Below, piece by piece: positions 12,601 through 55,725 of a stretch of DNA of 64,000 bases. The stretch is from Siniperca chuatsi (Eukaryota; Chordata; Actinopteri; Centrarchiformes; Sinipercidae), in the NCBI RefSeq assembly GCF_020085105.1, contig NC_058051.1:710001-774000 (forward strand), given 5' to 3'. A program made the position numbers and the translations under genes. The stretch's first letter is position 1. Every line of letters starts with the position of its first letter. The notes under the pieces are model-generated. The model had not been told where the DNA came from, did not search any database, and saw only the letters and a program-made list of their open reading frames with translations.

Positions 12601-14213
12601 GACACGAGACAGTCACCACTGTTGGTAGCAGCAACTTGAGTTAGAGCAGACACGCGCGGTTTAGTCATCTCCTTACAGCGCACGCCAGGTAACCACAACG
12701 TCCAGGGTTCGATCCCGGCCCGGGACCTGTGGCGCATGTCGCGTCCCCTTGTTTCCTGTCTGCCTGTCCAATAAAGGCAAGAGACAAACTTCCGCCCTCA
12801 TGTTCCAAATCAGTAATCAGAGCACGTAACAAAATGGCGGCATGAAGACGCAGGTAGCTCGTCTTGTCGAGCAGACTGACCGCTGGTTAGTTCCTCTCAC
12901 GCCATGAACACATTTGTTACACGTGCATATCACACAGCATTATTACGTCTCTACACATTTCTGTGAACTAGTGAGTTTGAGCAGAATAATGTAGTTTAGT
13001 TGTTGGCAGATTTAGTGTATCGTGTGGTTATTAAGCGTCTCCTCTCGTGTTGTTCAGGTTCCGCTGCGAAGAGCGAAGTCCACGCCGCCTTTCTGTCTGA
13101 TGTGAAAAAAGCCCTCGGAGCGGAGAAAACGGCTCAGCTGTTTCAGGCCATTCACAGCTACAAGAAGACAGACAACTACGAGGACCTGGTGACCACAGTG
13201 GGGAGCTTATTCACAGAGAGAGATGAGGACTTCGACCTTCTAGTCAGTACGTTCTTTCGAATCCCGACTTATACTGACTTCCTTGTAATAGATGTTCTTG
13301 TCAGCGGTTCTCACTCCGTCTTTCTTCTTTCTGTTGTTGAGGATTTGGGATGGTTATCCGCCCTCACCATAAGAAGCGGTACAAAGACATGTTGGATGCT
13401 TTGATAGGCCGGTCGGGCTCTGCTGCTGATGTTCCTGCTCTGAGCGAAGACCAGCAAAGACCAGGTGACGCTCAGTGAATCGCCCTCACGGAGATCATTA
13501 ATATCTGCAGAAGTCGGGGGTTGATGGTCGTTGGTAGACCTGAAGTGAAAATGGTTAAAGGAGTATCTCGCCGAGATTTAGACGAGAACATCAGTCAGTG
13601 CTAAGCTAAGCTAATCACATAGGAACTTACATCCACTTTATTAACGTCTCAGGAGGCCTGAGGACCAGCACGTTGGTAATAACGTGAGTACGAGTGATCG
13701 ACGTTGTGCAGATGTTATTTTAAATGTTTCTTATAGTCAACAAATCCCATGACATGATCCAGGCATGTCGGTCCGCCTCTCAGCACCGTCTGACTTCCTG
13801 TCTGCGGCTCTCAGCTGCGAGCCCATTGGTTCCTGCTGAAGACGTGAATCTTTAAAAACACAGATCTATAGTTTCCTGTTTAAAGAGGCTCAGTAGTTTC
13901 CTCAAACAGCTGCTCGCTGGAGTTTTTATCAGACCAACAGGAGGAAACAGAGCATCTGTCGGGGACTATTTTCAGCGGCGGATTAACTTTGTGGAAAAAC
14001 ACACATTTCAGATGTTTTTCCCCACAGACACAACAACAGTAGCGTTATTATTTACAGAAAAAACTGTCGAACGAGTATTAAATGTAACGAGACATGTGTT
14101 CCCTGTGAGACCTTTAAACTCCTTTTCTGTTTGTTTCAGCGTCGTCGTCGTCACCTCCTGTGAAGACACAAAGCAAGATTCACAGTTTTTTCTCAAGCAG
14201 CCAAAGAAAGTAG
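14..14213 (+). CDS. rtel1: RTEL1 DNA helicase, 3' part (27 exons; 5' end outside window)
   Basis: Superfamily 2 iron-sulfur helicase that unwinds telomeric D-loops, G-quadruplexes and replication intermediates in the nucleus. Exons: 14-98, 435-500, 684-840, 948-986, 1090-1165, 1614-1711, 1931-1986, 2479-2550, 2646-2733, 2901-3033, 4371-4484, 4654-4694, 4788-4873, 4988-5065, 5179-5256, 6373-6519, 6626-6741, 7640-7765, 8659-8835, 8914-9071, 9272-9367, 10585-10795, 11417-11554, 12449-12574, 13058-13246, 13342-13464, 14140-14213. Seen: the last Fe-S cysteine in CPYY (exon 1 here), DEAH box (481-492), [24 protein letters not shown] and the motif [11 protein letters not shown]. Two harmonin-N-like modules follow (exons at 10585/11417 and 13058/13342, each with a VRPHHKKR or IRPHHKKR end), then a C-terminal PIP box QSKIHSFF just before the TAG. 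The Walker A exon lies upstream. All exon phases join except at 7640-7765 (2-nt excess) and probably 8659-8835. There is no C-terminal RING-like extension in the last exon. Confidence 0.95.
2041..2430 (+). repeat. Dispersed fish repeat, copy 1 (RTEL1 intron)
   Basis: Contains the block TTAGCACAAAGACTGGAAGC followed by CAGCTAGCCT, recurring at 36561-36960 in an RCC2 intron. This module is very common in percomorph genomes. ORFs here are not coding. Confidence 0.65.
3775..3852 (+). repeat. Short dispersed repeat in RTEL1 intron
   Basis: About 78 bp with GATTGGC, TTCAGAGCGACGAGACCAGT and TTTATTAATCAC; a near copy lies at 46710-46785 (TTCAGAGCGATGAGACCAGT ... TTATTAATCACC) in a cyclase-gene intron. 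The rest of this 1.3-kb intron (3034-4370) shows no exon. Confidence 0.55.
4961..4981 (+). repeat. (GT)n next to a 3' splice site
   Basis: A GT run that ends about 6 nt before the AG of the RTEL1 exon starting at 4988, replacing the usual polypyrimidine tract. Confidence 0.85.
5066..5178 (+). other. rtel1: GC-AG intron of RTEL1
   Basis: The exon ending ...GTFNE at 5065 is followed by gcgagt, not gtgagt, and the next exon starts after ctctcag at 5179 (VIDGYYNKV). Protein homology runs straight through, so this is a minor-class GC donor spliced by the major spliceosome. Confidence 0.8.
5330..5425. repeat. Dispersed AT-rich fish repeat
   Basis: Contains TTGCGATAAACGATATTATTG, a sequence familiar from fish dispersed repeats, inside the RTEL1 intron 5257-6372. 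A tail-like segment follows near 5880-5990 (TTCAGTTTAATTTGTATAGC). Confidence 0.4.
6589..6620 (+). repeat. (GT)n next to a 3' splice site
   Basis: A GT run separated by only CGCAG from the RTEL1 exon starting at 6626. Length change here could alter recognition of the exon that carries helicase motif VI. Confidence 0.85.
6820..6875 (+). repeat. ATCGA-type dispersed fish repeat
   Basis: TTCGTCGATCGACAGAAAAT with flanks resembles the segment at 41900-41945 in the opposite sense (CTGTCAATCGATGAATTG). It lies in the RTEL1 intron 6742-7639, where I see no exon. Confidence 0.45.
7640..7765 (+). other. rtel1: RTEL1 exon with apparent +2 frameshift
   Basis: The exon begins in frame ([19 protein letters not shown]) and resumes two bases out of frame as [21 protein letters not shown], which is again clearly RTEL1. 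The switch is at a CTCT run, 7698-7701, where one CT looks duplicated. Exon length is 126, whereas the flanking phases need 124 modulo 3. The splice sites (cccccgcag / gttggt) are normal. It may be a real disabling allele, a polymorphism, or an assembly error in a dinucleotide repeat; the intact remainder of the gene favours an error or recent change. Confidence 0.75.
8659..8835 (+). other. rtel1: RTEL1 linker exon with uncertain reading frame
   Basis: The 3' end reads [17 protein letters not shown], matching the RTEL1 linker, but the 5' part in the phase expected from the previous exon reads [12 protein letters not shown] then a serine-rich stretch and meets a stop at 8818-8820. Two explanations fit: use of the AG two bases downstream (tgtcagag|gcc, exon 8661-8835), which restores the phase but gives an unusually hydrophobic segment; or a one-base loss in the repetitive CCCAAAGCT region around 8755-8780. 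Confidence 0.5.
10950..11235 (+). repeat. Dispersed fish repeat (GGATGGATTCCCATGAAATT family)
   Basis: Carries TCTAGCGCCATCATCAGGTC, ACATTCCCATCAGCCTCAGC and GCTGCTAGCATGGCCGTGGA, a frequent ray-finned fish repeat. Related pieces lie at 30600-30915, 31455-31545 and, reversed, 46445-46570. No coding potential. Confidence 0.65.
12660..12790 (+). repeat. tRNA-derived SINE
   Basis: Contains a clear pol III B box (GGTTCGATCC, inside GGGTTCGATCCCGGCC) and the tail GTCCAATAAAGGCAAG typical of a tRNA-derived percomorph SINE. The A box is poor and the copy is divergent. It sits in the RTEL1 intron 12575-13057. Confidence 0.65.
13770..13990 (+). repeat. Shared dispersed repeat, copy 1 of 3 (RTEL1 last intron)
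   Basis: About 220 bp including CCTGTCTGCGGCTCTCAGCT and TTTTTATCAGACCAACAGGA. The same element is reversed at 35640-35900 (RCC2 intron) and forward at 61340-61635 (PHC2 intron), about 90% alike by eye. No ORF; nature (SINE or MITE) not determined. Confidence 0.75.
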
Positions 14214-20359: not shown

Positions 20360-21745
20360 GGAGGCCTGTGGTGAGTTGATCCAGAATACTGCGGCACTGA
20401 AGAGAGATCAAACCTCTCCAGTATCAGCTTCTCTGCACTGGCTCCCTGTGAAATCCAGAACTGAATTTAAAATCCTTCTCCTCACCTACAAAGCTCTTAA
20501 TGGTCAGGCACCATCGGATCTTAAAGATCTCATAATACCTTATTACCCGACTAGATCACTGCGCTCCCAGGATGCAGGGTTACTTGTGGATCCTAGAGTT
20601 TCCAAAAGTAGACCGGGAGCCAGAGCCTTCAGGTATCAAGCTCCTCTCCTGTGGAACCAGGTCCCAGTTTGGGTTCAGGAGGCAGACATCATCTCCACAT
20701 TTAAGAGCAGGCTTCAGACTTTCCTCTGTGATGAAGCTTATAGTTAGAGCTGGCTCAGGTGAGTCCTGAACCATCCCTTAGTTCTGCTGCTATAGGCCTA
20801 CACTGCCGGGAGACTTCCCATGATGCACCTCTTTTCTCTCTCTCCTCCATCTGTATGCATTTTTATCCCATTACTGCATGTTACTAACTCGACATCTTCT
20901 CTCTCCCGTAGTTCTGTGATTTCTCGTCTCTCTCCTCTCTCCTTCTGTCGCTTTCAGCAGGTATTTCTGCCCCGGAGCTGCAGAGTCTGGATCTGTGGTT
21001 GTGGGCCACCTGCTGCCCCCGTGTTCCTGCAGAGTCTGGATCTGTGGTTGTGGGCCACCTGCTGCCCCCGTGTTCCTGCAGAGTCTGGATCTGTGGTTGT
21101 GGCCACCTGCTGCCCCCGTGTTCCTGCAGTCTGGATCTGTGGTTGTGGGCCACCTGCTGCCCCGTGTTCCTGCAGAGTCTGGATCTGTGGTTGTGGGCCA
21201 CCTGCTGCCCCCCCGTGTTCCTGCAGAGTCTGGATCTGTGGTTGTGGGCCACCTGCTGCCCCCGTGTTCCTGCAGAGTCTGGATCTGTGGTTGTGGGCCA
21301 CCTGCTGCCCCCTGTGTTCCTGCAGAGTCTGGATCTGTGGTTGTGGGCCACCTGCTGCCCCCGTGTTCCTGCAGAGTCTGGATCTGTGGTTGTGGGCCAC
21401 CTGCTGCCCCCGTGTTCCTGCAGAGTCTGGATCCCTGTGTTCCTGCAGAGTCTGGATCTGTGGTTGTGGGCCACCTGCTGCCCCTGTGTTCCTGCTCGAC
21501 AACGGCTGCTACAGTTGTTGTCATTGGCTCTGTTACTAATACTGACATTATTCTTCCTATAGCTGTCATTCCTATTATTACTAATTTATTAACACTACAA
21601 TTGTACTATTTTAAAATTCTAGGTGGAGTTTGCATTGTGCCCCCCAGTCTGGTTCTGTCTTCTCTTAAAGTTATATTGTTACCATGGAAACGCTGCAGAC
21701 GACACAGATCTAACCCTGGCTTAAACCTTAAAGCAAGACTGTAAG
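20360..21745 (+). mobile_element. Non-LTR retrotransposon 3' region (L2/CR1-group-like)
   Basis: A 5'-truncated element. 20380-20747 encodes the end of a reverse-transcriptase ORF, with SASLHWLPVKSRTEFKILLL, YKALNGQAPSDLKDLI and LLWNQVP. The sequence after the stop (CTGCTATAGGCCTACACTGC ... CCCATGATGCACCTC) reads as this element's 3' UTR, and the minisatellite at 20979-21497 sits inside it. A non-functional fragment. Confidence 0.75.
20979..21497 (+). repeat. 49-bp minisatellite, about 10 copies
   Basis: The unit (CAGAGTCTGGATCTGTGGTT, GTGGGCCACCTGC, TGCCCCCGTGTTCCTG) is repeated head to tail with small indels and one truncated unit near 21430. The flanks continue as retroelement 3' UTR. The array makes long overlapping ORFs in four or more frames, none of which is a gene. 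Confidence 0.92.
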
Positions 21746-37833: not shown

Positions 37834-39839
37834 CTTTACACCGGCGGAGAGACGTCACCGAACGCGTCTTTACACCGGCGGAGAGACGTCACCGAACGCG
37901 TCTTTACACCGGCGGAGAGACGTCACCGAACGCATCTTTACACCGGCGGAGAGACGTCACCGAACGCGTCTTTACACCGGCGGAGAGACGTCACCGAACG
38001 CGTCTTTACACCGGCGGAGAGACGTCACCGAACGCGTCTTTACACCGGCGGAGAGACGTCACCGAACGCGTCTTTACACCGGCGGAGAGACGTCACCGAA
38101 CGCGTCTTTACACCGGCGGAGAGACGTCACCGAACGCGTCTTTACACCGGCGGAGAGACGTCACCGAACGCGTCTTTACACCGGCGAGAGACGCGTCAAC
38201 GAGCAGCGTCTTTACCGGCGCCACCGAACTCGTCTTTACACCGGCGGAGAGACGTCACCGAACGCATCTTTAAAACCGCCACCGAACGCATCTTTAAAAC
38301 GGCGGAGAGACGTCACCTTAACGGCGCATCTTTAAAACCGTCACCGAACTCGTCTTTACACCGGCGGAGAGACGTCACCGAACGCATCTTTAAAACCGTC
38401 ACCGAACGCATCTTTAAAACCGTCACCGAACGCATCTTTAAAACCGTCACCGAACTCGTCTTTACACCGGCGGAGAGACGTCACCGAACGCGTCTTTAAA
38501 ACCGTCACCGAACGCGTCTTTAAAACCGTCACCGAACGCGTCTTTAAAACCGTCCCCGAACGCGTCTTTAAAACCGTCACCGAACGCGTCTTTAAAACCG
38601 TCACCGAACGCGTCTTTACACCGTCACCGAACGCGTCTTTACACCGTCACCGAACGCGTCTTTACACCGTCACCGAACGCGTCTTTAAAACCGTCACCGA
38701 ACGCGTCTTTAAAACCGTCACCGAACGCGTCTTTACACCGTCACCGAACGCGTCTTTACACCGTCACCGAACGCGTCTTTACACCGTCACGAACGCGTCT
38801 TTAAAACCGTCACGAACGCGTCTTTAAAACCGTCACGAACGCGTTTTTTAAAACCGTCACGAACGCGTCTTTACACCGTCACCGAACGCGTCTTTAAAAC
38901 CGTCACCGACGCGCGTTTTAAAACCGTCACCGAACGCGTCTTTAAAACCGTCACCGAGCGCGCGTCTTTTACACGTCACCGAACGCGTCTTTACACCATC
39001 ACGAACGCGTCTTTACACCATCACCGAACGCGTCTTTAAACCATCACGAACGCGTCTTTAAAACCGTCACCGAACGCGTCTTTACACCGTCACCGAACGC
39101 GTCTTTAAAACCGTCACCAACGCGCGTCTTTACACCATCACCGAACGCGTCTTTACACCATCACGAACGCGTCTTTACACCATCACCGAACGCGTCTTTA
39201 AAACCGTCACCGAACGCGTCTTTACACCGTCACCGAACGCGTCTTTAAAACCGTCACCGAACGCGTCTTTACACCATCACCGAACGCGTCTTTACACCAT
39301 CACCGAACGCGTCTTTACACCATCACCGAACGCGTCTTTAAAACCGTCACCGAACGCGTCTTTACACCATCACCGGACGCGTCTTTAAAACCGTCACCGA
39401 ACGCGTCTTTAAAACCGTCACCGAACGCGTCTTTAAAACCGTCACCGAACGCGTCTTTACACCATCACGGCGGCGACACATCACCAACGCGCGTCTTTAA
39501 CACCATCACCGAACGCGTCTTTACACCGGGCGGAGAGGCGTCACCGACGCAGCGTCTTTAACACCGTCACGAACGCGTCTTTAAAACCGTCACCAAACGC
39601 ATCTTTAAAAGTGACGTCACCGAACGCATCTTTAACCGACAGAGTGACGTCACCGAACGCATCTTTAACCGACAGAGTGACGTCACCGAACGCGTCTTTA
39701 CACCGGCGGAGAGACGTCACCGAACGCATCTTTAACCGACAGAGTGACGTCACCGAACGCGTCTTTACACCGGCGGAGTGACGTCACCGAACGCATCTTT
39801 ACACCGGCGGAGTGACGCCACCGAACGCGTCTACACCGG
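37834..39839. repeat. 2-kb CpG-rich minisatellite in the RCC2 5' region
   Basis: About 75 related units. Left block (to about 38200): a 34-bp unit containing CACCGGCGGAGAGACGTCAC followed by CGAACGCGTCTTTA. Middle: a 24-bp unit lacking GGCGGAGAGA, with AAAACCGTCACC or ACACCGTCACC or ACACCATCACC starts. Right block (39600-39835): a 33-bp unit with ACAGAGTGACGTCACCGAAC. The core CACCGAACGCGTCTTT is shared by all, and most units carry ACGCGT; the right block carries the full CRE TGACGTCA. It lies between the RCC2 coding exon 1 and the proposed leader exon, so probably in intron 1. ORFs inside it are artefacts. Confidence 0.93.
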
Positions 39840-43009: not shown

Positions 43010-46000
43010 TTACAGGTGGTGGTTGGAGCCAGGCAGCAGGTCAGGTTTGTGCCCACTGCTGCTCCCACGCTGGCTGGGCAGAGGACTCTCATCTCCCCCC
43101 TGCAGCCCCCCAATCATGGAGCCCAGGGTACTGTGGCTGCCGCCGCAGGGCTCCACCTGCGCCGCCACGCTCAGGCCAGGCCTGTCTGTCCGAGGCGGCG
43201 GCGGCGTTTGGTTCAACACTGAGGAGGGAAGGGAGACGGGGGTGGTGGCGTTCTCACTGAGGCTCTGCACTGTCACTGATGACTGGCACAGAGGTACGTA
43301 TGTGAGGTAAATTCATCACATATACATAGACACAGATGACATTCAATTCATTTTCTATCAAAAACACAAAGATTGAAGGTTCACATGTTATATTTTGCTG
43401 GTGGCAAACTTCTGTAGAGGCAGTGTCACTGGGCGGAGCCGTCCAACCACATCTAACCTTTAGCTAAAGCGGCGTCTCTGGGTTAGGGAGGGTGACTACA
43501 ATGATTTCATTCTTTTATCTATCACACTGGCATTCAGCATCTGCAGGCTGGCTAACAAGCTCAGCTTGACTAGTCGTAATCCATTTCCATCTCTTGAGAT
43601 TTGGACATTGCATCACTCGAATGAAGGAGAATGTTGAGAACATGAACTCACCAGATAGTGGGCAACCTCCTTATCAGTTTATAAGGTGTGTGTGTGGGGG
43701 GGGATCTGTGAGGAGAGGTGCAAAGTAACGATAACACGCGATTTACTCAAATCAGTGATGGCGCAGAATGTCTCGCTGAAGGCTGGAAGCTATATTATAT
43801 CAGTAAATCAATGGTAGCGTACTTTCTGTAGCTCTCGTTCCTCTGCAGCAGGGGTGCACACATCCGATGCACCAGATCAGCGCTGGCGCCGACCTTTAGG
43901 TGGATCGTGTACCATAACATGACCGAGCCACATCAAATACAGCTGCTGTCATAAACTACAATGTTTCAGCTCTCAGTTCATGCGGTTTTTAGTGTCTCAG
44001 CAATGCTGTCCTTGTGTTACTTTACACAAAATGGCCCCAATGAGCAGTGAACACACACACACACACACTACCAGGGCAGCCAGGGCAACCTGATGAGAAG
44101 TGGACTACTGGAACAAGACATTCATGGACTAGAGCAGACGTCCAAGAGCGTCAGGCACGAGGAGCTGGACAGCACCGGGCCCCGACGTGATCCACACCTG
44201 CTGGCTGAAGAAACTAACTGCGCTCCACGAACGCCGGGCAGCACGAATGAGCCATCTGCTGATGGATGGGACCCTCCCAACTACCGGCCAATAACCTGCC
44301 TCTGCACAGCACGGGAGCTCCTGTCAGGCATCGCAGCGGCTGAGACGAGTAGGCACATGGCCCCGAGAGGAACTGGTAGTAATACCAGGGGAGCCGAGCA
44401 CCAGCTCACTCGAGGCTGCCAGACCAGCAGACCGACCTGTGCACCGCCTGGATTCAAGAGGAAGGAACACGAGAAGCTCGAAAAATACCAAGAGCTGAAA
44501 GACACACACAGATTTTAATATGGGACAGAGAGCGCTGGTTTCAGCAGGCACCCTGACTTGAGGTATCAGAAGAGAAGAGTCGGACCAGTGCTTTGACCTA
44601 GTTCTTAACACAAACTATGAGTCAGTAATAAGATTTCCTACCATCTGGTGATTGTGTGTTTTCAACATTCTTCCCAAAACTAAAATGTCCAGTTTCCAGG
44701 AGACTGCGATCAAGGATCAGGGCTACCTGAAGGCTACCTGAAGGCTACCCTGCAGGCTAACCTGAAGGCTACCCTGCAGGCTAACCTGCAGGTAAACTGC
44801 AGGTCAACAGCAGAAACAAATGGAGGGAAGTGAGATTGGAGGGAAATGGTTTGGTAGCATTAAGATGCTCAGTTGCCAACGTTAAACCCAGTGTTGGGAT
44901 ATAAACTTGTGCAAGTGACACTTAGTGAAACTGCAGGAATATTTATGCCACGTTCACGTCACATGGGACGGACGGTAGCGACATGCAGTAAGAAAAAAGT
45001 TAAATATGAGGAAGAATAAAGGACACTTCAGTGAATTTCTAGCTTGTGTACAAGTAGAGAATAAAACAGGCAGACGGTGAGTTATTTGAAGCCAACAACA
45101 AACTACAGGACAGGGACAAACGTTCTGGCTCCTCTAATGACAAACATCTGGAAAACTGAACCAGTTCAACTCACATTGCCCACAGAGACCTCGCTGCCGG
45201 CCACCGTCTTCTTCTTCCTGGCCTTGTTGGGATTCCAGTGACAAACCAGGCTGTCGTTCTGCACGCTGTAGTTCTTATGGCCAATCAGCCAGTACGTGTT
45301 CATCTTGCCTTTACCCTGGCAGCAGGAGGAACGACACCAGAGAGGAACAGTGACTACCAGAGGTTACTGTTAAAGACAAGTCCAACTTAAAAAGGGTCTC
45401 ACCCAAATTACAAAAACTACCAACAGCACTGCAGGTAAGACATCCAGATGGTTTTGGTTTCAGATCTCTGAGAAATCTGCCGCCACCGAAAACATTCTCT
45501 GAAACCTGGCAAAATAAGACCTGAACTATACGCATGTAGACAGTTCTTGGGCTGTGTGAGGAGACGCTGTGTGTGGGTTTGGGTGGACAGACCCTTTAAC
45601 TCTGTAAACTTGGTTTTGACTGAGCCACAGTACGAGGTGAGGTTTTAGTCTTTATTGCAGATGTATGTTTTCATCCGACTGTGGAGCGAATTTGATATGA
45701 ACCTTTAAAATTTACATCCACAATAAAAGTAAATGGCTTCCTGGATGTAACAACAAACCTAAGGTTTCATTTCACGGCACGTCTGGGATCTCTTACCTTA
45801 ATCTCAATCTCTCCTCGAAGCTGCAGCTCGTAGGCGTTGTCTTTGATCAGAGCCAAGTAGGTTTCTGAGCTGGTGTGGATTCTCTGAGCTGACACACAAA
45901 CACACAAATAATCAATTCTGTAACACACAACTGAGGTTTGGCCAACGTCGAGCTAAGCATGGATCTCAGCGCTGTCCTTGTTTTCCAAATTCAAATTTAA

Positions 46001-49000
46001 AGTTTTCAAGGATCTGTATGCAACAAAGGTTAAAGCCCTTCTGAGTTTGACTCTGCAAATACCTTTTTTGGATCAAACCACTGGGAGACGCCAGTCAAGT
46101 CCTACATGTACGGGCTCAAACATCTAGTTTCCACTGTCGCTGTGTTTGTGCGAGGTGTGTCGCCCTGCACGCACACAGATGTGTGTGTTTGTGTGTCTAG
46201 GTGCACATACGCAGGCTGGTGGACTCCATTCTGGACGCCGTGTTGACCGTGTCTCCGAACAGACAGTATCTTGGCATCTTGTAGCCCACTATTCCCGCCA
46301 CACACGGACCTTTAGAGCCAGGAGAAAAACAGCTGTGCTTCACTCTGCTGCAAGAAGTCCAATACATCCCACAATGCAACAGGGCTGGAGAAAGCTGAAG
46401 CCTTCCCAGTAAAATAGATTCAAATACAAAATTCAAGTCTAAATAAAAAGACTGCAGCCATGCTAGCAGCTCTGTGAGGCTGTACGTAGACACAGCGGTG
46501 CTACATGCTAACAGCAGCATGCTTACATGCTCACAGTGACAATGCTAACATGCTGATGTTTAGCTAACAGAATATAACAGAATAATGCTAAATATATATA
46601 TTAACTATTGTAATTAAAGCCTCTCCAACCAGTAAATGAGTTTAAATCAGCAGAAATGCATTTATCTCTAAACAGCTGCTCTATTCTGGATGGAAAGTTT
46701 CCCTGCTGCCTCTGATTGATTGTTTCAGAGCGATGAGACCAGTGACGTGATTGGTTGAGAGTGTACTTATTAATCACCACGTTTGACACTTTCACAGACA
46801 CGAACCAAAACTGATCGATGTCCCTATCGGTCCCTGCACAGGTGATCGGTTCGTGTTGGCGGCACAGACCTGAGCCTCCTCTCACCTGTGTGGATGCCGG
46901 CTCGGAGCTGCAGCCTGTGGTTGGGCATGTGAGGGATGGAGACCTGTCTGACGGCTGCTACCAGATCCAGCGCCATCTTGGCGATCTCGTCGGCATGCCT
47001 GTCCCCGTTCCTCTCAGGCAGGCCGCTCACCACCATGTATGCATCCCCGATCGTCTCCACCTGGTTTCATAGTTTGAAACACTGAATTATCCCGGGAAGA
47101 TACGTGGACCAATCAGGGAATGACTCGCACTTCTCAAGCTAACTGAGAAGAAAATAAAACATGGCTTAAAAGGCTAAAAGCGGTTGGCATGTATGTAGGC
47201 CTGTGCAGCTGAGTTACTGCTTTCCATCTGTTTTGTTTGGGAGCTTTAAAAACAGATAATTTAGTATCTTTAAATTGGACAGTTTTCATGCAACAAAATC
47301 TAAATTCTGCAAAGCGTCACTCTTATTACGGTGAATAATTCATATTTTAACCTTCCAAAATCACATTTTTTTAGTTATTTACAAATGATAAATATACTAT
47401 CAGATTGTGGAAGAGGAGTCTGGTAGTGAGGACGCAGAGGGAAACTCTGAGCAATATGCTGTAACAGAAGCGACAGCAGCTTGTGCTGAGGGGGCGTCAC
47501 ACGCCGGATCTATTTCTTGATGAACAACAGGCGGGTGCAGCGACTGTGCACTGTGACTGAACCGCGTCAGAAGATGGAGCAAATGCAGAACATTTGTCAT
47601 CACGTGATCAGTCTGATCAGACCAGTAATCAGCTGATCAATCTATAGACACACTGAGTGCTCACATGGGTGAGAATGAACACATGACTAACGTTAACGAT
47701 GGCTCTGGTGCGCTGAAGTGTCCCGATAAGCCATGTTAGTGAGCCGGCACGCACAGCACCAGCACCCTGCCACTGCTACAATTAAATGGATATTAATTAC
47801 GCCTGTGACGTTTTTCCCATATAGTCGTCTTCTCAGGCAGAGCTCACTTCTAAGCTGTGTATCACCCGCAACAAGTGCCACCATTTTCCCCCTCTACAAA
47901 TGCAGACATTGGACAGGCTGCAGAAAACATTGAACAGATGTTAATATGTGCTGCATGTAACAATAAATGCAGGTCTTCGGTGTGGTGTCAGCGGTGCCTG
48001 CAGGCGGAGGACCAGAGAGGCTCAGCTGCAGCTCATCAGACTAATTAGCAGTCTGAGCAACAGGCCGGTAGCCACATCTCTGTCTCTGCTGCAGGCTGAG
48101 GCCGGGCTGCAGGCGTACACACAGCAACCGAAGCAAAGGTCACCTGGAGACGAGCTGCTGTTTGTGTTACATTTAGACAAATCTAAACCCCTCCCCTCCT
48201 TCGACCCTCTGAGCGTGTGCCACTGTTTTCACCAAATGTTAAAGGAAAGAAGTGCTGACTGTTAAACTTTAAGGTAAAGTCGGTGCGTGAACTGTCTGTG
48301 TGTGTGCTGACATTTCGCTGTTACCTTGTAGACGTTGTAGGAGTCGATGCGAGTGTCAAAGCACATGTAGAGGTTGTTGAGCATCTCCACCACTTGCAGA
48401 GGAGTACAGGACGCAGAGATGGAGGTGAAGCCCACGATGTCGGAGAAAAAGATGGTCACCTGGGACAACGTGGAGAGAAGTGACTCCATCAGTGTGCAGC
48501 ATTATTGCTTGTACTGGACAGACATGCACAGTTTATTAGGTCCACCTAGCTAAAACCAATGCAGTCTACAATCCTACAGTAAATCTCAGTAACAGATACA
48601 CTTCCATTATTTTGTCCCCCCCATTTATATCAATGAGAGCGGGCTAAAAAACAGAAACCCCTCTCTGTATAACAGAGTTCAGCAGCAGCTGAACTACATC
48701 CTCTATAATGGAGTTGAGTCAACTCGTCTCTACAACCGTTTCAGCACAAACGCTGTAACCTTCGTCGGTAGCACGAGTCACATGCGCTGCGTCCCTCGGG
48801 GCTCAGGAAGTTTTACTTTTCCACTCGGTTTGGAACAAAAAGGAGAATCGATGGGTCTTAAATCTTCTTTCCAGAATACTCCAGAGCTCCAAATCAATGA
48901 GCCCGTGGTCCTGTTCAGTAACCCCCCTCCCCTCCCCTCCCCTCCCCACGCAGAGTGCTTTTGGTACAGCTGCTTCAAACCTCTTCAATAAGCCAGACGC

Positions 49001-52000
49001 AATTTTCACAAATATAACTTGTTTTATCTCCTGATGAATATGGAACAGGGCAATTATAGGTAATTACACCAACAATAGCAACAAAGGCAGCAAACGCACA
49101 CATGCATTCATCGCGTTTGCAGATCTCGCAGCGGTAGCCTCCTCGCAGCAGCAGCCCACACCCCTCGCCACACTGGAAGCTCTCAATTTGTTTGGTTAAA
49201 TGTTAAAAGTGAACGTGGGGGCTTTACTGCCTTATCTGTCTTCAACTGTCTGTTTCTACCATTTGCCTTAAAGGTTTGCATTCAGTTTGTGTTGTAGGTG
49301 TTGTTTTGTGGCTTGTTTCCCTCATGGACATTTAAAAGTCAAATGCAATGCCATTTAACATGTTTAAAATAGAGTAACAGCTGATGAATTGGCATAAATA
49401 ATGAATGCTTTTCCAAAGTTTAAATTAAACTGATCAGGTGTGTTACTGCTGTGACTCAGCTACAATCATTTATCTTTTCTGAGCTGAATGTAATAACCGT
49501 CAGGACAAGCTGTCAGGATTCAGCTGTTGTTTTCCCCCTCTACCTGTCTACCTGTCTGTGTGTGCGGACTGGTCTGGGCGTGCTGCTCATAACCAATCAA
49601 GACCACGCAGTATTTCACCCCGGCTCTCCTCTCCGGTCTTTGCCAGATTGTTCGGTGCACTTCAGCGGTACTAAGCCCAAGGCGACCTCAGGGTGGAGGC
49701 CCATGGTGTGCCCGACCCGACCCAGACCCAGACCCAGACCCTGCTTCTGCCGACAGGTCCTGCTTTTGGGTCTCCAGAGCGTGAAACACAACACAAACAA
49801 CGTGATTGGCTGCTTAGGGATTGATTAAAGTATATCTGCTGTCAGAAAAATTAAGAGTTGATTCACTTTTTTATGACATAATTTTTAATCATGTCTAGTC
49901 ACTCCGAGTCAAAAGGCTAAAGTCCAAGTGAACTCTGGAGTCACTGGTGGAAAAGTCTTTTTCTTATTTTGTCTAAGTCATCAGCTCGTGACTCGAGTCA
50001 GATCCTTGAGTCCACATCATGTGACTCAAAGCCACACCTGTTGGAGGGAGTGCTTACAAAGTGAACAGGTTTGTTGAGGCGTTTCTAGTCTTGAATCATC
50101 CAGTTTAGGGTTTGCTGAGCACGAATGTTTATTTTCTGATTTTCTGAGAACACCCTACTCCGCGCTTTATTTAAAACACAAGGGGCTGCATTGGTGGGGG
50201 CGGGTTTCAGGTACCGGCGAGACGATGAAATGTGATCCACGACGTCCAGTTTGAGTAACACATCCATGAGTCGGAAGCCTGGTCAGATGCCAAAACACAG
50301 CACAGTGCTTTATATTAATGAGTGGAATAAGTTTCATATCAGATAAACATGCATGCGTGTCTTTGATTGGCTTTGGGGGAAAAGTCGAGTCGGGTTCAAC
50401 TTTTGTGCTGGATGAGCTTGTATTTTTAGTCCGAGCCCTGCAGCGCCAACACAGCGACCTACCTTCCGCAGGTGGAGAGTCTGTCTGCACATCTTCATAC
50501 AGGAGCTAGTAAACAAATGGCTGCATTCATGTAGCGCTTTACGATTTGGATGCTGACCGGGACCGGGAGCAGTTTGGGTTATTATTTTTGCTGATACGTC
50601 GTGAACTCGAGGGCATTACCGCCCCGAGCTCTTGTTCACGTTTCGCGCTGCTGCAGAAAGAACTTTACAAAGTCGTCGCCCCGACCAGATTTCAGCGCCT
50701 GAGGCTCAGCGGAGCCTGGCGGCAGGAAGTGACTGACTGTTGAAACTAGAAATGAAAGATGCAAGATGAAACATGATTCGTCAACTGCATAACCAGTTTC
50801 TCATCTCTAAGTTATTTTGAAACTGGTTTTGCATAAATAGTTTAGGTTTAGTTTGGCTGCCTTCTCCAAGGCAAAGACCAGTGACGGGCCAGCGAGTAGC
50901 CCGTTGGTGAAAAGGGTCTGAGCACCAGCAGTCGTCTGCTGCTTCACCCGTCCTGGGCGAACGCCTGCTTCGACCGCACTAAACCACAGCGAGAGAAGCA
51001 CAAATGATTACACCAACCTTTTCATAGCTCTCGGCCTTGACGTGTTTTTGCTGGCGGAGCTGCTTGGCGACTGACTTGGGCAGCATTTGGTGCAGCAGAT
51101 CCTCGGCCAGCTGCCTCTGGCGCTTCAGGTCCTCGGTCTTCTCCTTCAAGCTCTGGGCGTAGTTCTGTATCCACTCGGTCATCAGCTTGAAAGAGAATAT
51201 CGCCACCGGGTATATGAGGCAGGCGATGGCCAGCAGGCAGACCCTCACACTGAGGCCCGAAGACACGGATCGAGACGCCAACCTGAGAGCCGGCGCCGCA
51301 CGATCAAACAAGCACTGCTGAGCGTTCGTCAGAGCCTGAACTGCGGCGTCGGACCCAGACAGGAGCTCCGTCCCAGCTCCGGAGATCTGCCACAGACGCG
51401 TGTCAAAAATCCAGGAATGTTTTACACTCTGGCTCGAGTTCAACTTGAGGTCTACGTTCTCCAACCAGCAGCCGTTCAGTCGCTCCGCCGTAACCCTGGC
51501 AAAGCCGAGGTAGCTCAGCACGTAAGTCCACTTGTACTGGAAGCCGGTGTGAGCCGCCAGGTGGGGGAAGTCCATCAGCTGGTGGTTGAGCTCTATGAAC
51601 GCGACCAGAAGTCTTGCAGACAGCACATCTCCCCAGTTAGGATTGTGGTGGACTTTGGCTAAAGTATCTTCGACCGTACCCCACATGTCGAGAAGTCTTC
51701 CGATGGCCAGGGAGTAAGCTACCGTACCGTTTTCACTCGTGCCGTTTGTGTCCAACGAAGCGTTTGGAAATCCTTGAACGCTCCTCCTCATCTCCTGGCA
51801 AAATCCGGCCAGCTCAATACCGCAAGGGAGGCCGTGGCTGTCCCCCGCCATTTCACCGCACGGATGACCGAACGCGGGAAACGCGACCTCTGAAAAAGTT
51901 GCCTCCAGTGTCTCGTTGCCCACGTCTTTGGTAAATAAACGCCTCATCTTCTGAAGCTTAGCGACGAGCTGCAGGATAGCCGTCGTCCTGCACGACGTCA

Positions 52001-53422
52001 GCTCGCCGTACGCCGCCTCCGTAGTGCGCAGCAGGTCAAAGGTGGAGCTGAGGTCGATGGATACGGAGCCGAGCAGGGCCAGGAAGGAGAGCAGGCAGGC
52101 CGTCAGAATCCGCCGGACGGTGCGACTGCTGCCAGACTGGGAAAATATGGAACACCTGGAACAACAGGAGCACAGCCGGTGAATTCCTGAAGGAGGCGGC
52201 AAAACGCCCTCGCACCTGGCAAACTGCTGCACGCGGCGGCCATGTTTGTCCCACTGTTGGTTTTGGAAAGTTAGAAAATAATGTCAGATACAGAACATTA
52301 AATTAAAACATTGCGGTTTCCACGGTTACATGCTGAATCGGTTACTAAGCGATTACTAAGCGAAACAAATAGCTTTAAGACTTGCTATCTTTTCATTCAT
52401 TAATTTAATTAATGATATTTAAACAGTCTGGATTGCGTCTAAAGTCTTTTCTTATATGATCATTTTTGGCCGATTGGCGTCGCATCGCTCTGCTTCTGTA
52501 TCTGTTTGTATTTTATTTTGCCGATTAATTTTATTCAGTTCACAGTAGCTTTCTAAATTCTTGACTTAAGGGTGATGGATTAAAATACCCAACAATAAGG
52601 TTAAAATCAATAATAAAAACAGATAAGACATGTTGGAAATGAAACGTTTGCTAGCATTAACATTATATATTAATCAGCTGACAGAAAATTAACTGACAGC
52701 AGATGTGATAGTTGATTGAAGTTATTTATAAAGCTAAAGTATGAGAGTGTGAGGCTTTGCTGCTCTGGGAACTGTTTTCTGTCCTTCACGTGACTGAACC
52801 ATAAACAGATCTATGTAAATCATCATTAGCTGCAGGTAAATTATACATTTGGGAGAAAAAGGTAATATCACGTGACATGTGACCGAGGTGGTACCTGTGT
52901 TCTGCAAAACATCAGATCGTCTCAGTCCGGCAGAAGATAATCCCCCGACTTTAAAAAGAAAACCTACATTTCAGTGAATCAACGCGTTCTTTTAAAAGAC
53001 AAGTGAGACTACTGAATGTGAAAGCCAGCTCAGACCTGAGCAGGTCCGGACCTGCTCGTGTCAGTGTGAACAGGTCCGGATCCGGACCTGCTCGTGTCAG
53101 TGTGAACAGGTCCGGATCCGGACCTGCAGGTCTCAGTGTGAACAGGTCCCGATCCGGACCTGCAGGTCTCAGTGTGAACAGGTCCTAACTTACTTACTGA
53201 GACAAGTCAAAGCTCAGCCAGCAGCTGGACCAGCAGGTTTACTCCAGAGAAACTTCCAGGGAGAGTCGTGGTGTCTCACCTGCACAGCCGACAGTCCCGG
53301 TCCGCATCCTGCTGCGCCCCCGGAGCGACCCTCCTCTTCTTCACGAGTCTTCTTCTGAGAGAGGCCGAGGACAGGGTCCCAGATGCGAAACACTCTTTTT
53401 TCATCAAGTCCAGCGATGACAT
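43010..53422 (-). CDS. Two-pass membrane guanylyl cyclase with NIT-like extracellular domain
   Basis: Makes cGMP from GTP by sequence. Exons in order: 53280-53422, 51018-52155, 48325-48459, 46886-47060, 46211-46309, 45797-45888, 45175-45315, 43010-43282; all phases join to 731 aa. Layout: basic cytoplasmic N-terminus (1-62), TM1 about 64-81, extracellular helical region 82-350 with five N-glycosylation sequons, TM2 about 351-370, coiled coil with [14 protein letters not shown] (about 401-414), cyclase domain about 425-620, Ser/Pro-rich tail to 731. Catalytic residues are complete: metal Asp434 (FFSDIVGF) and Asp478 ([11 protein letters not shown]), guanine-specifying Glu474 (VETIG) and Cys546 (PRYCLFGD), Asn553 and Arg557 (NTASR). 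There is no kinase-homology domain, unlike NPR or GUCY2 receptors. The NIT assignment rests on topology and a helix [19 protein letters not shown] like the NIT 'LQxER' helix, so it is tentative. Exon 1 is chosen because its phase-2 donor fits the acceptor tgttgttccag at 52156. Confidence 0.88.
44090..44475 (+). mobile_element. Degraded reverse-transcriptase fragment
   Basis: In shifted frames, 44175-44390 reads [31 protein letters not shown] and NYRPITCLC...LLSGI, then [13 protein letters not shown]. These resemble the RT finger region (KAPGPD...; NYRPITCL...) of R2/NeSL-type site-specific LINEs. Frameshifted and isolated, within the last intron of the cyclase gene. Confidence 0.55.
44722..44807 (+). 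repeat. Short tandem repeat (CTGAAGGCTAC / CTGCAGGCTAA)
   Basis: Six or so alternating 11-13-bp units in the cyclase last intron. Confidence 0.8.
46445..46570 (-). repeat. Dispersed fish repeat fragment
   Basis: Contains GCTAGCAGCTCTGTGAGGCT and CAATGCTAACATGCTGATGT, the reverse of the family at 10950 and 31455. A second short repeat shared with 3775-3852 follows at 46710-46785. Confidence 0.6.
48922..48947 (-). other. Predicted G-quadruplex tract on cyclase sense strand
   Basis: C6-T-C4-T-C4-T-C4-T-C4 on the + strand, that is five G-runs with single-A loops on the transcribed sense strand, in the intron 48460-51017. Confidence 0.7.
53037..53187. repeat. 36-bp tandem repeat with 16-bp palindromes
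   Basis: Four copies of CTGCTCGTGTCAGTGTGAAC + AGGTCCGGATCCGGAC; exact palindromes GGTCCGGATCCGGACC lie at 53073-53088 and 53109-53124, later copies slightly changed. It lies in intron 1 of the cyclase gene, just past its exon-1 donor. Confidence 0.9.
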
Positions 53423-53989: not shown

Positions 53990-54778
53990 GTGTCTGGACT
54001 ACAACTACCACAACTACAACTACCACTACTACTACTACAACCACTACTACAACTACTACTACTACTATCACTACAACTACTACAACCACTACCACCACTA
54101 CTACAACTACCACTACTACTACTACTACAACTACTACTACTACTACTACTATCACAACTACAACTACCACTACTACTGCCATTACTACAACTACCACTAC
54201 TGCCACTAATACTATCACTATCACTACAACTACTACAACCACTACCACCACAACTACAACTACTACTGCCACTACTACAACTACTACTACTGCCACTACT
54301 ACTACTACAACTACCACTACTACAACTACCACTACTACTACTACTACAACTACTACTACTACTACTACTACTATCACAACTACAACTACCACTACTACTG
54401 CCATTACTACAACTACCACTACTGCCACTAATACTATCACTATCACTACAACTACTACAACCACTACCACCACAACTACAACTACTGCCACCACAACCAC
54501 TACACTGCCACTACTACTACTACTACTACTCACTACACCACTGCCACTACTACACTACTACTACTACTACTACTACTACTACAACTACTACTACTACTAC
54601 TACTACTACACTACCACACTACTCACCTACTACAACTACTACAACCACTACCACACAATCACTACACTGCCATCACTACAACTACTACAACCACACTACA
54701 TCACCACTACTACACTACTACTACTGCCTACTACTACTACAACTACTACTACTGCCACTACTACTACTACTACCACAC

Positions 54779-54812
<34 letters not shown>

Positions 54813-55725
54813 CACACTATCACTACAACTACTACAACTACTACTATCACTACCACTACTACTACTACCACTACTACTACTATCACTACAACTACTACAA
54901 CTACTACTACTACCACTACTACAACTACAACTACAACTACTACAACTACTACTACTATCACTACAACTACTACAACTACTACTACTACCACTACTACAAC
55001 TACAACTACTACAACTATCACTACCACTACTACTACTGCCACTACTACAACTACAACTACTACAACCACTACCACCACAACTACAACTACTACTGCCACT
55101 ACTACAACTACTACTACTGCCACTACTACTACTACAACTACTACTACTATCACTACAACTACTACAACTACTACTACTACCACTACTACAACTACAACTA
55201 CTACAACTACTACTACTATCACTACCACTACTACTACTGCCACTACTACAACTACTACAACTACAACTACTACCACTACTACAACTAATACTACTACCAC
55301 TACTAGTATTACTACCACTACCACCACTACCACTACTACTACATCTACTACCATTACTACTATCACTACTACTACATCTACTACCATTACTACTACAACT
55401 ACAACTACTACAACTACCACTACTAGTATTACTACCACTACCACCACTATCACTACTACTACAACTACTACTACCACTACCACTACTACTACATCTACTA
55501 CCATTACTACTATCACTACTACTACTACAACTACAACTACAACTACTACCACCACTACAACTACAACTAATATTACTACCACTACCACCACTATCACTAC
55601 TACTACAACTATCACTACTACTACAACTACTACTACCACTACCACTACTACTACATCTACTACTATCACTACTACTACCACAACCACCACTAACACTACC
55701 GCTACAACTACTGTTACTACTAGCT
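53990..55725 (+). repeat. 1.7-kb ACT-type trinucleotide tract
   Basis: Almost pure ACT/ACA/ACC triplets (Thr-like in one frame), with few G bases on the + strand outside TGCC and TAGT interruptions. Larger duplications are visible: 54010-54230 recurs at about 54330-54480. It yields ORFs up to 588 codons in several frames on both strands; none is a gene. Confidence 0.97.

Follow-up and report, generated by a model that had tools for sequence, protein, structure and literature searches.

We studied a putative receptor guanylyl cyclase gene located on the minus strand of a 64,000-nucleotide stretch of the Siniperca chuatsi genome (GCF_020085105.1, contig NC_058051.1, positions 710,001 to 774,000), hereafter the window, whose positions are used throughout. 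The gene extends from a start codon at 53422 to a TAA at 43010, and its eight exons join in phase to encode 731 residues. The sequence supports a receptor-type membrane guanylyl cyclase with two transmembrane (TM) helices and without a detectable kinase-homology domain. In 2006, insects and sea urchins were reported to have a third class of animal guanylyl cyclase, which consists of an extracellular NIT domain, a signalling helix (S-helix) and a cyclase domain (PMC1592074; statements on the literature cited in this work refer to the portions available of each source). On balance, we favor the view that the fish gene encodes a two-TM, kinase-less receptor cyclase built on the plan of these NIT-domain guanylyl cyclases (NIT-GCs), with an ectodomain that is likely a derived NIT domain.

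Gene structure and protein layout

The exons and the predicted protein features, all on the minus strand, are the following:

53280..53422, exon 1: start codon, then the N-terminus (basic, cytoplasmic); donor GTGAGA
51018..52155, exon 2: TM1, the entire ectodomain, TM2 and the S-helix
48325..48459, exon 3: part of the cyclase domain, including D434 (metal Asp)
46886..47060, exon 4: part of the cyclase domain, including E474 and D478
46211..46309, exon 5: part of the cyclase domain, including C546, N553 and R557
45797..45888, exon 6: a further part of the cyclase domain
45175..45315, exon 7: last part of the cyclase domain, followed by a basic tail; donor GTGAGT
43010..43282, exon 8: Pro/Ser-rich C-terminal tail of about 90 residues, TAA; least certain exon
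52053..52109, TM1: residues 64-82, Kyte-Doolittle peak 1.99
51255..52052, ectodomain, candidate derived NIT-like sensor: residues 83-348, five sequons, helical in low-confidence models
51918..51977, helix-1 NIT-like signature: residues 108-127, with the half-site Q116-x-x-R119
51198..51254, TM2: residues 349-367, Kyte-Doolittle peak 2.29
51057..51188, S-helix: residues 371-414, C-terminal part of HNOBA (9.6e-6), NPR1 match (0.0035)

The seven introns of the cyclase gene are all of the GT-AG type. The open frame of exon 2 spans 434 codons; when the region was resampled 300 times under a first-order Markov model, no open frame exceeded 296. The weak point of the gene model is exon 8, which is supported by a single acceptor (CCTCTGTGCCAG). 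Reading through the exon 7 donor (45166-45174) leads to an in-frame stop after two extra codons, so that a transcript retaining intron 7 would encode a protein of 643 residues that lacks the Pro/Ser-rich tail. The Pfam, intron-position and residue/TM analyses were run on a 726-residue version, which uses an alternative exon 7 donor and has identical numbering through residue 636. The weakly supported exon 8 would fit a pseudogene or an annotation artefact, a reading that we regard as very improbable given the eight exons open in frame, the intact splice sites and the six catalytic residues kept (see below). Contamination was ruled out by the presence of eight GT-AG exons on a contig of 31 Mb (C10, in a genome of 719 Mb and 65 contigs), amid RCC1-repeat, RTEL1-like and PHC-like exons. 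The gene is intact, and it is unusual among vertebrates.

At the threshold used, only two hydrophobic stretches were found in the protein, with Kyte-Doolittle peaks at residues 64-82 and 349-367. The 266 residues between them contain five N-x-S/T sequons (at 128, 179, 185, 190 and 287). The Pfam family Guanylate_cyc matched with 1.7e-69, covering profile positions 1-182 of 183, and all six catalytic residues checked were in place (D434, E474, D478, C546, N553 and R557); from established knowledge of class III cyclases, we take E474 and C546 to be guanine-selecting and D434 to be the metal Asp. The sole further Pfam family above cut-off was the C-terminal part of HNOBA, which corresponds to the S-helix region. 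The HNOB heme domain had no Pfam match in the protein, and the protein search gave no sensor family above the Pfam cut-off and none in NCBIfam. The closest solved cyclase domains were those of NPR1 (273 bits) and then GC-C (246 bits). A soluble cyclase was ruled out by the lack of HNOB, the two TM helices and the different introns (see below).

An initial annotation of this stretch had described an eight-exon, in-phase chain of 731 residues with two TM helices, five sequons in an extracellular domain of about 270 residues, and a class III guanylyl cyclase domain that was complete and carried Glu474 and Cys546. The chain was rebuilt exactly, hydropathy agreed with the two helices and placed 266 residues between them, and the Pfam match together with the residue check bore out the catalytic domain. 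The resemblance that it drew to the layout of invertebrate NIT-domain guanylyl cyclases agrees with the published third class (PMC1592074).

Kinase-homology domain and intron positions

The window was searched with three kinase-homology probes derived from one paralog, and nothing was found below E 0.05; the best match (E 0.057) lay on the opposite strand. Pfam found no such domain in the protein either, in keeping with its absence as first annotated. The same probes detected eight of the 12 other membrane-cyclase loci of the genome, the source paralog among them; since four loci were missed, perhaps because their exons lie outside the searched DNA, the probes are incomplete.

Two introns link the window gene to the membrane cyclases. 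At the position of its phase 1 intron at codon 530, a GT was present in all 12 membrane loci, and at that of the phase 1 intron at codon 563 in all 10 membrane loci assessed. Matches of the soluble cyclases continue across this 530/563 region, and the membrane and soluble groups both have the intron at 472.

Position among the cyclases of the genome

Scanning the genome with PF00211 yielded 131 exon matches, from which 12 membrane cyclases besides the window gene and 7 soluble cyclases were joined. The paralog names used here are presumed from the sequences, except for the NPR-type gene on contig C18 and the GC-C-type gene on contig C21, which are backed by solved structures. Four adenylyl cyclase rows were taken from the scan as well, and 10 of 80 bacterial cyclase loci served as outgroup. 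The many other adenylyl cyclase exons were excluded, as was a soluble copy with stops (L032), and wrongly joined stretches were masked manually, giving a full tree of 34 rows and 182 columns in which the animal sequences come from this genome only. In this tree, the window gene and the 12 others formed a clade (support 96/90), within which the 12 others formed a clade excluding the window gene (97/95). The clade of 12 was also recovered in reduced sets with fewer outgroup rows, with support of 92/93 (23 rows) and 95/94 (19 rows). The clade of 13 and the introns at 530 and 563 place the gene among the animal membrane guanylyl cyclases, broadly defined, and its best-estimate position is as sister to the 12 other membrane cyclases of the genome.

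The scan also gave observations on other cyclases. Two membrane cyclases with kinase-homology exons, L015 (C22:23.22-23.23 Mb) and L019 (C6:15.36-15.37 Mb), form a clade of their own (100/99), separate from the NPR, GC-C, GUCY2 D/E/F and GC-G-like rows; for the C6 copy, NPR1 is the closest relative with a solved structure (208 bits). Within the soluble cyclases, L009 (C8) and L022 (C9) pair at 100/98 and do not group with the alpha, beta-1 or beta-2-like rows. The soluble beta-2-like exon copy L032 (C24:16.42 Mb) contains two stops and lies about 88 kb from an open copy in L024, and is perhaps a decayed duplicate. The top four cyclase matches in the genome (L001-L004) were considered as intronless paralogs and discarded, as they read as adenylyl cyclases, a label assigned by eye.

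A NIT-like signature in the ectodomain

Bacterial NIT domains were collected as reference from four sets of genomes, in which NIT matches occurred in 4 of 30, 112 of 299, 24 of 198 and 1 of 146 genomes. Among the matches listed there were 63 loci, 61 of them usable; 57 of these 61 carried the ERG pattern, and 53 of the 57 had two clear TM helices. A match to the most conserved NIT block, the helix-1 signature, was seen in the fish ectodomain. Its R119 lies 36 residues past TM1, and the signature Arg of the bacterial NITs lies at a median of 33 (5-95% range 32-38, n=53). The 20-column helix-1 block scored 10.7 bits at this place, the highest value in the protein. This score was reached by 1 of 20,000 shuffles of that segment and by 2 of 9,447 natural segments, neither of them a NIT as judged by eye, and it was reached by none of 30 four-helix 4HB_MCP decoys. 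A block near the end of the ectodomain was reached by 178 of 4,000 shuffles. The profile of 61 NITs aligned in register with the first half of the fish ectodomain, although non-significantly.

Searched against its own genome, the sensor encoded in exon 2 found itself and two other rows, with E 0.5 and 1.5, that matched the TM2/S-helix end only, suggesting, within the reach of this search, that the sensor exon has one copy only. Viral contigs were examined as a source of relatives and discarded; they gave two pattern matches, neither of which was related.

The bacterial sensors bind nitrate through G-x-x-R motifs, and in NasR both arginines are kept, with glutamine in place of one of the glycines (PMC8199190). 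We infer that the Q-x-x-R form corresponds to the helix-1 motif and the G-x-x-R form to the KExxGxER motif. Both Arg motifs were found by pattern in 41 of the 61 bacterial NITs, where they lie 120-128 residues apart (median 127). In the fish ectodomain, the second half-site, a G-x-x-R about 127 residues past the first, is absent in register. The sole G-x-x-R is G265-R268, whose Arg is 149 residues from R119; it was rejected as second half-site because this spacing falls outside 120-128. With one half-site kept and the second out of register, a bacterial-type two-Arg site is not supported. A highly derived NIT domain, with the helix-1 Q-x-x-R half-site kept and the second Arg half-site lost, is a likely but not proven reading of the ectodomain, and the loss of the second half-site suggests that the ligand or the sensing mode has probably changed.

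Evidence weighing against a NIT-type receptor

A number of results speak against a NIT-type assignment, most of them concerning the ectodomain. Pfam NIT (PF08376), searched up to E 10, matched neither the ectodomain nor any other place in the genome. The initial annotation had proposed this very search for its NIT-like sensor and had named a lack of NIT similarity as contrary evidence, and a lack of similarity is what was found at the level of the hidden Markov model (HMM) search. An HMM built from 29 bacterial NITs gave 0.3 bits, reached by 41 of the 1,111 listed shuffles (2,000 were made). Among shuffles, 7 of 220 reached the local score of the 61-NIT profile, as did 4 of 145 natural segments, and its global score was at the level of chance (72 of 220 and 62 of 145, respectively). 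The 266-residue ectodomain is slightly under the 5% point of the bacterial ones (270; median 281, 5-95% range 270-299, 53 of 61 NITs). The middle NIT block was reached by 395 of 4,000 shuffles, and the KExxGxER block had no match, 3,881 of 4,000 shuffles being equal or better. Two single-sequence structure models were all helical, at a confidence too low for use (predicted local distance difference test, pLDDT, of 44 and 35); a PDB fold search with the first of them gave no match (best E 1.7). The helix-1 signature has its own limits: 16 divergent NITs scored 12.1 to 37.7 bits in a leave-one-out comparison, all above the 10.7 of the fish, and the motif was noticed before testing, which makes its odds too favorable.

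An alternative is that the ectodomain is an unrelated helical domain, recruited or new, in a separate kinase-less receptor cyclase, the helix-1 match then being due to chance or to convergence on an amphipathic juxtamembrane helix. The missing Pfam NIT match, the lack of any sensor family in Pfam (above cut-off) or NCBIfam, the profile and global comparisons close to chance and the second Arg motif out of register all agree with such an origin. We consider it unlikely, though a serious alternative, because the most conserved NIT block is present at the correct distance from TM1 and the gene as a whole is laid out like the animal cyclases of the published third class. The opposite reading, a full NIT-GC-type receptor for nitrate/nitrite or nitric oxide (NO) with intact ligand binding, draws on the same layout and the retained Arg half-site, and on a Platynereis relative, NIT-GC1, that according to a commentary is required for NO feedback (PMC10584369). 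It is improbable, since the sole G-x-x-R Arg stands at a spacing outside that of the 41 bacterial NITs. The NIT-like sensor is not supported as first annotated; what speaks for it is the helix-1 signature at the right place, the in-register but non-significant profile match and an ectodomain length close to that of the bacterial NITs. We regard the NIT reading of the ectodomain as plausible, if weakly supported, and nitrate or NO sensing as not supported.

The catalytic domain also provided contrary observations. The intron at 427 falls within exon matches of the other membrane cyclases, and that at 594 had a GT in only two of the five membrane loci assessed. When the window gene was forced into other groups, the approximately unbiased (AU) test gave p values of 0.047 with NPR, 0.067 with the pair on contigs C6 and C22, 0.123 with GUCY2 D/E/F plus GC-C, 0.039 with the GC-G-like row and 0.065 with the soluble cyclases, i.e., three of five placements were above 0.05 (range 0.039 to 0.123). 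In the reduced sets, the values ranged from 0.027 to 0.089 for NPR, the C6/C22 pair and the soluble group, and from 0.067 to 0.089 for NPR and the C6/C22 pair. As these tests leave other placements not firmly rejected, the sister position given above is a best estimate and not a firm one. A gene derived from NPR or GUCY2 by loss of the ectodomain and the kinase-homology domain would account for the shared introns at 530 and 563, for NPR1 being the closest solved relative and for the AU values of the NPR, C6/C22 and GUCY2 D/E/F plus GC-C placements. We find such an origin quite improbable, as the best trees place the gene outside all 12 other membrane cyclases and loss alone would not explain a second TM helix and a helical ectodomain of 266 residues. 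The best trees and the layout support the earlier placement of the gene outside the NPR/GUCY2 plan, but the AU tests do not firmly reject NPR/GUCY2 placements.

Possible mode of action

On the favored plan of a kinase-less receptor cyclase of NIT-GC type, two chains would pair through the S-helix. The homodimer would form two active sites, because one chain holds all the catalytic residues checked. A signal received in the extracellular helical domain would alter the packing of the TM2/S-helix helices, and the altered packing would in turn raise or lower the output of cyclic GMP (cGMP). In the human receptor cyclases, deletion of the S-helix region abolishes both activity and dimerization (PMC1592074).

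Neighboring genes and repeats

Other features found in the window are the following:

13000-13401, plus strand: RTEL1-like HHD domain exon, below the Pfam cut-off
20978-21433: minisatellite of nine 49-base units with 96% matches; all six frames across it are open, for 184 to 274 codons
32535-33500, minus strand: RCC1 repeat exons
37834-39839: minisatellite of about 2 kb, with units of 23-24, 34 and 47-48 bases based on CGTCACCGAACGCGTCTTTA
53998-55722: ACT-type simple repeat of 1.7 kb, upstream of the cyclase gene at about 0.6 kb from its start codon
57189-63217, plus strand: short PHC1/2-like gene with a SAM domain, limits read by eye

Comparison with known guanylyl cyclases

Soluble guanylyl cyclases have an HNOB heme domain and no TM helix. 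The fish protein resembles them in the catalytic domain and the S-helix; it differs in its introns, its TM helices and the lack of an HNOB match. NPR1 and NPR2 have a peptide-binding ectodomain, one TM helix and a kinase-homology domain. They provide the closest solved cyclase domain and share the S-helix, and the NPR-like loci L010 and L020 of this genome have a GT at codons 530 and 563 as in the window gene (L016 at 530). Of the NPR/GUCY2 features looked for, neither the kinase-homology domain nor the single TM helix with a peptide-receptor ectodomain was found in the window gene. The genome's GC-C, GUCY2 D/E/F-like and GC-G-like cyclases are likewise of the membrane type and share the intron at 530 and, where assessed, that at 563; together with the NPR-like genes they form the clade that excludes the window gene, with kinase-homology exons detected in 8 of the 12 loci in the DNA searched.

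Among described non-vertebrate cyclases, ML02033a of a ctenophore (PMC10073611) was considered by its description alone. The likeness to bacterial NITs resides in the helix-1 signature with Q-x-x-R. NIT-GCs have been reported in placozoans (Trichoplax) and many bilaterians, and vertebrates are said to have lost NIT domains (PMC7400543); in Platynereis, NIT-GC2 serves as a cilium marker (PMC11412693). The available portions of the open-licence literature searched, including that on NIT domain and zebrafish, name no vertebrate NIT-GC. A review of vertebrate membrane guanylyl cyclases lists seven characterized types (PMC10061024), and the visual and olfactory ones are covered in another source (PMC7674705). 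Compared by their described layout, the animal NIT-GCs and the fish gene share the order TM helix, extracellular domain, TM helix, S-helix and cyclase, with no kinase-homology domain. The fish gene differs from them in the lack of a Pfam NIT match, the second Arg out of register and the vertebrate host, and it was not filed as a NIT-GC member because searches showed neither a Pfam NIT match nor a second Arg motif in register.

Whether vertebrates kept NIT-type receptor cyclases is, in our estimate, evenly balanced: the fish copy would then have a sensor beyond Pfam detection, with one nitrate-binding Arg lost, and would represent an eighth type with a new ligand. The gene allows a direct test of ligand change in NIT-type sensors. 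It would also show how control of a membrane cyclase works in a vertebrate when no kinase-homology domain is present, and an intact, kinase-less fish receptor cyclase would be an orphan cGMP receptor standing outside the count of seven types.

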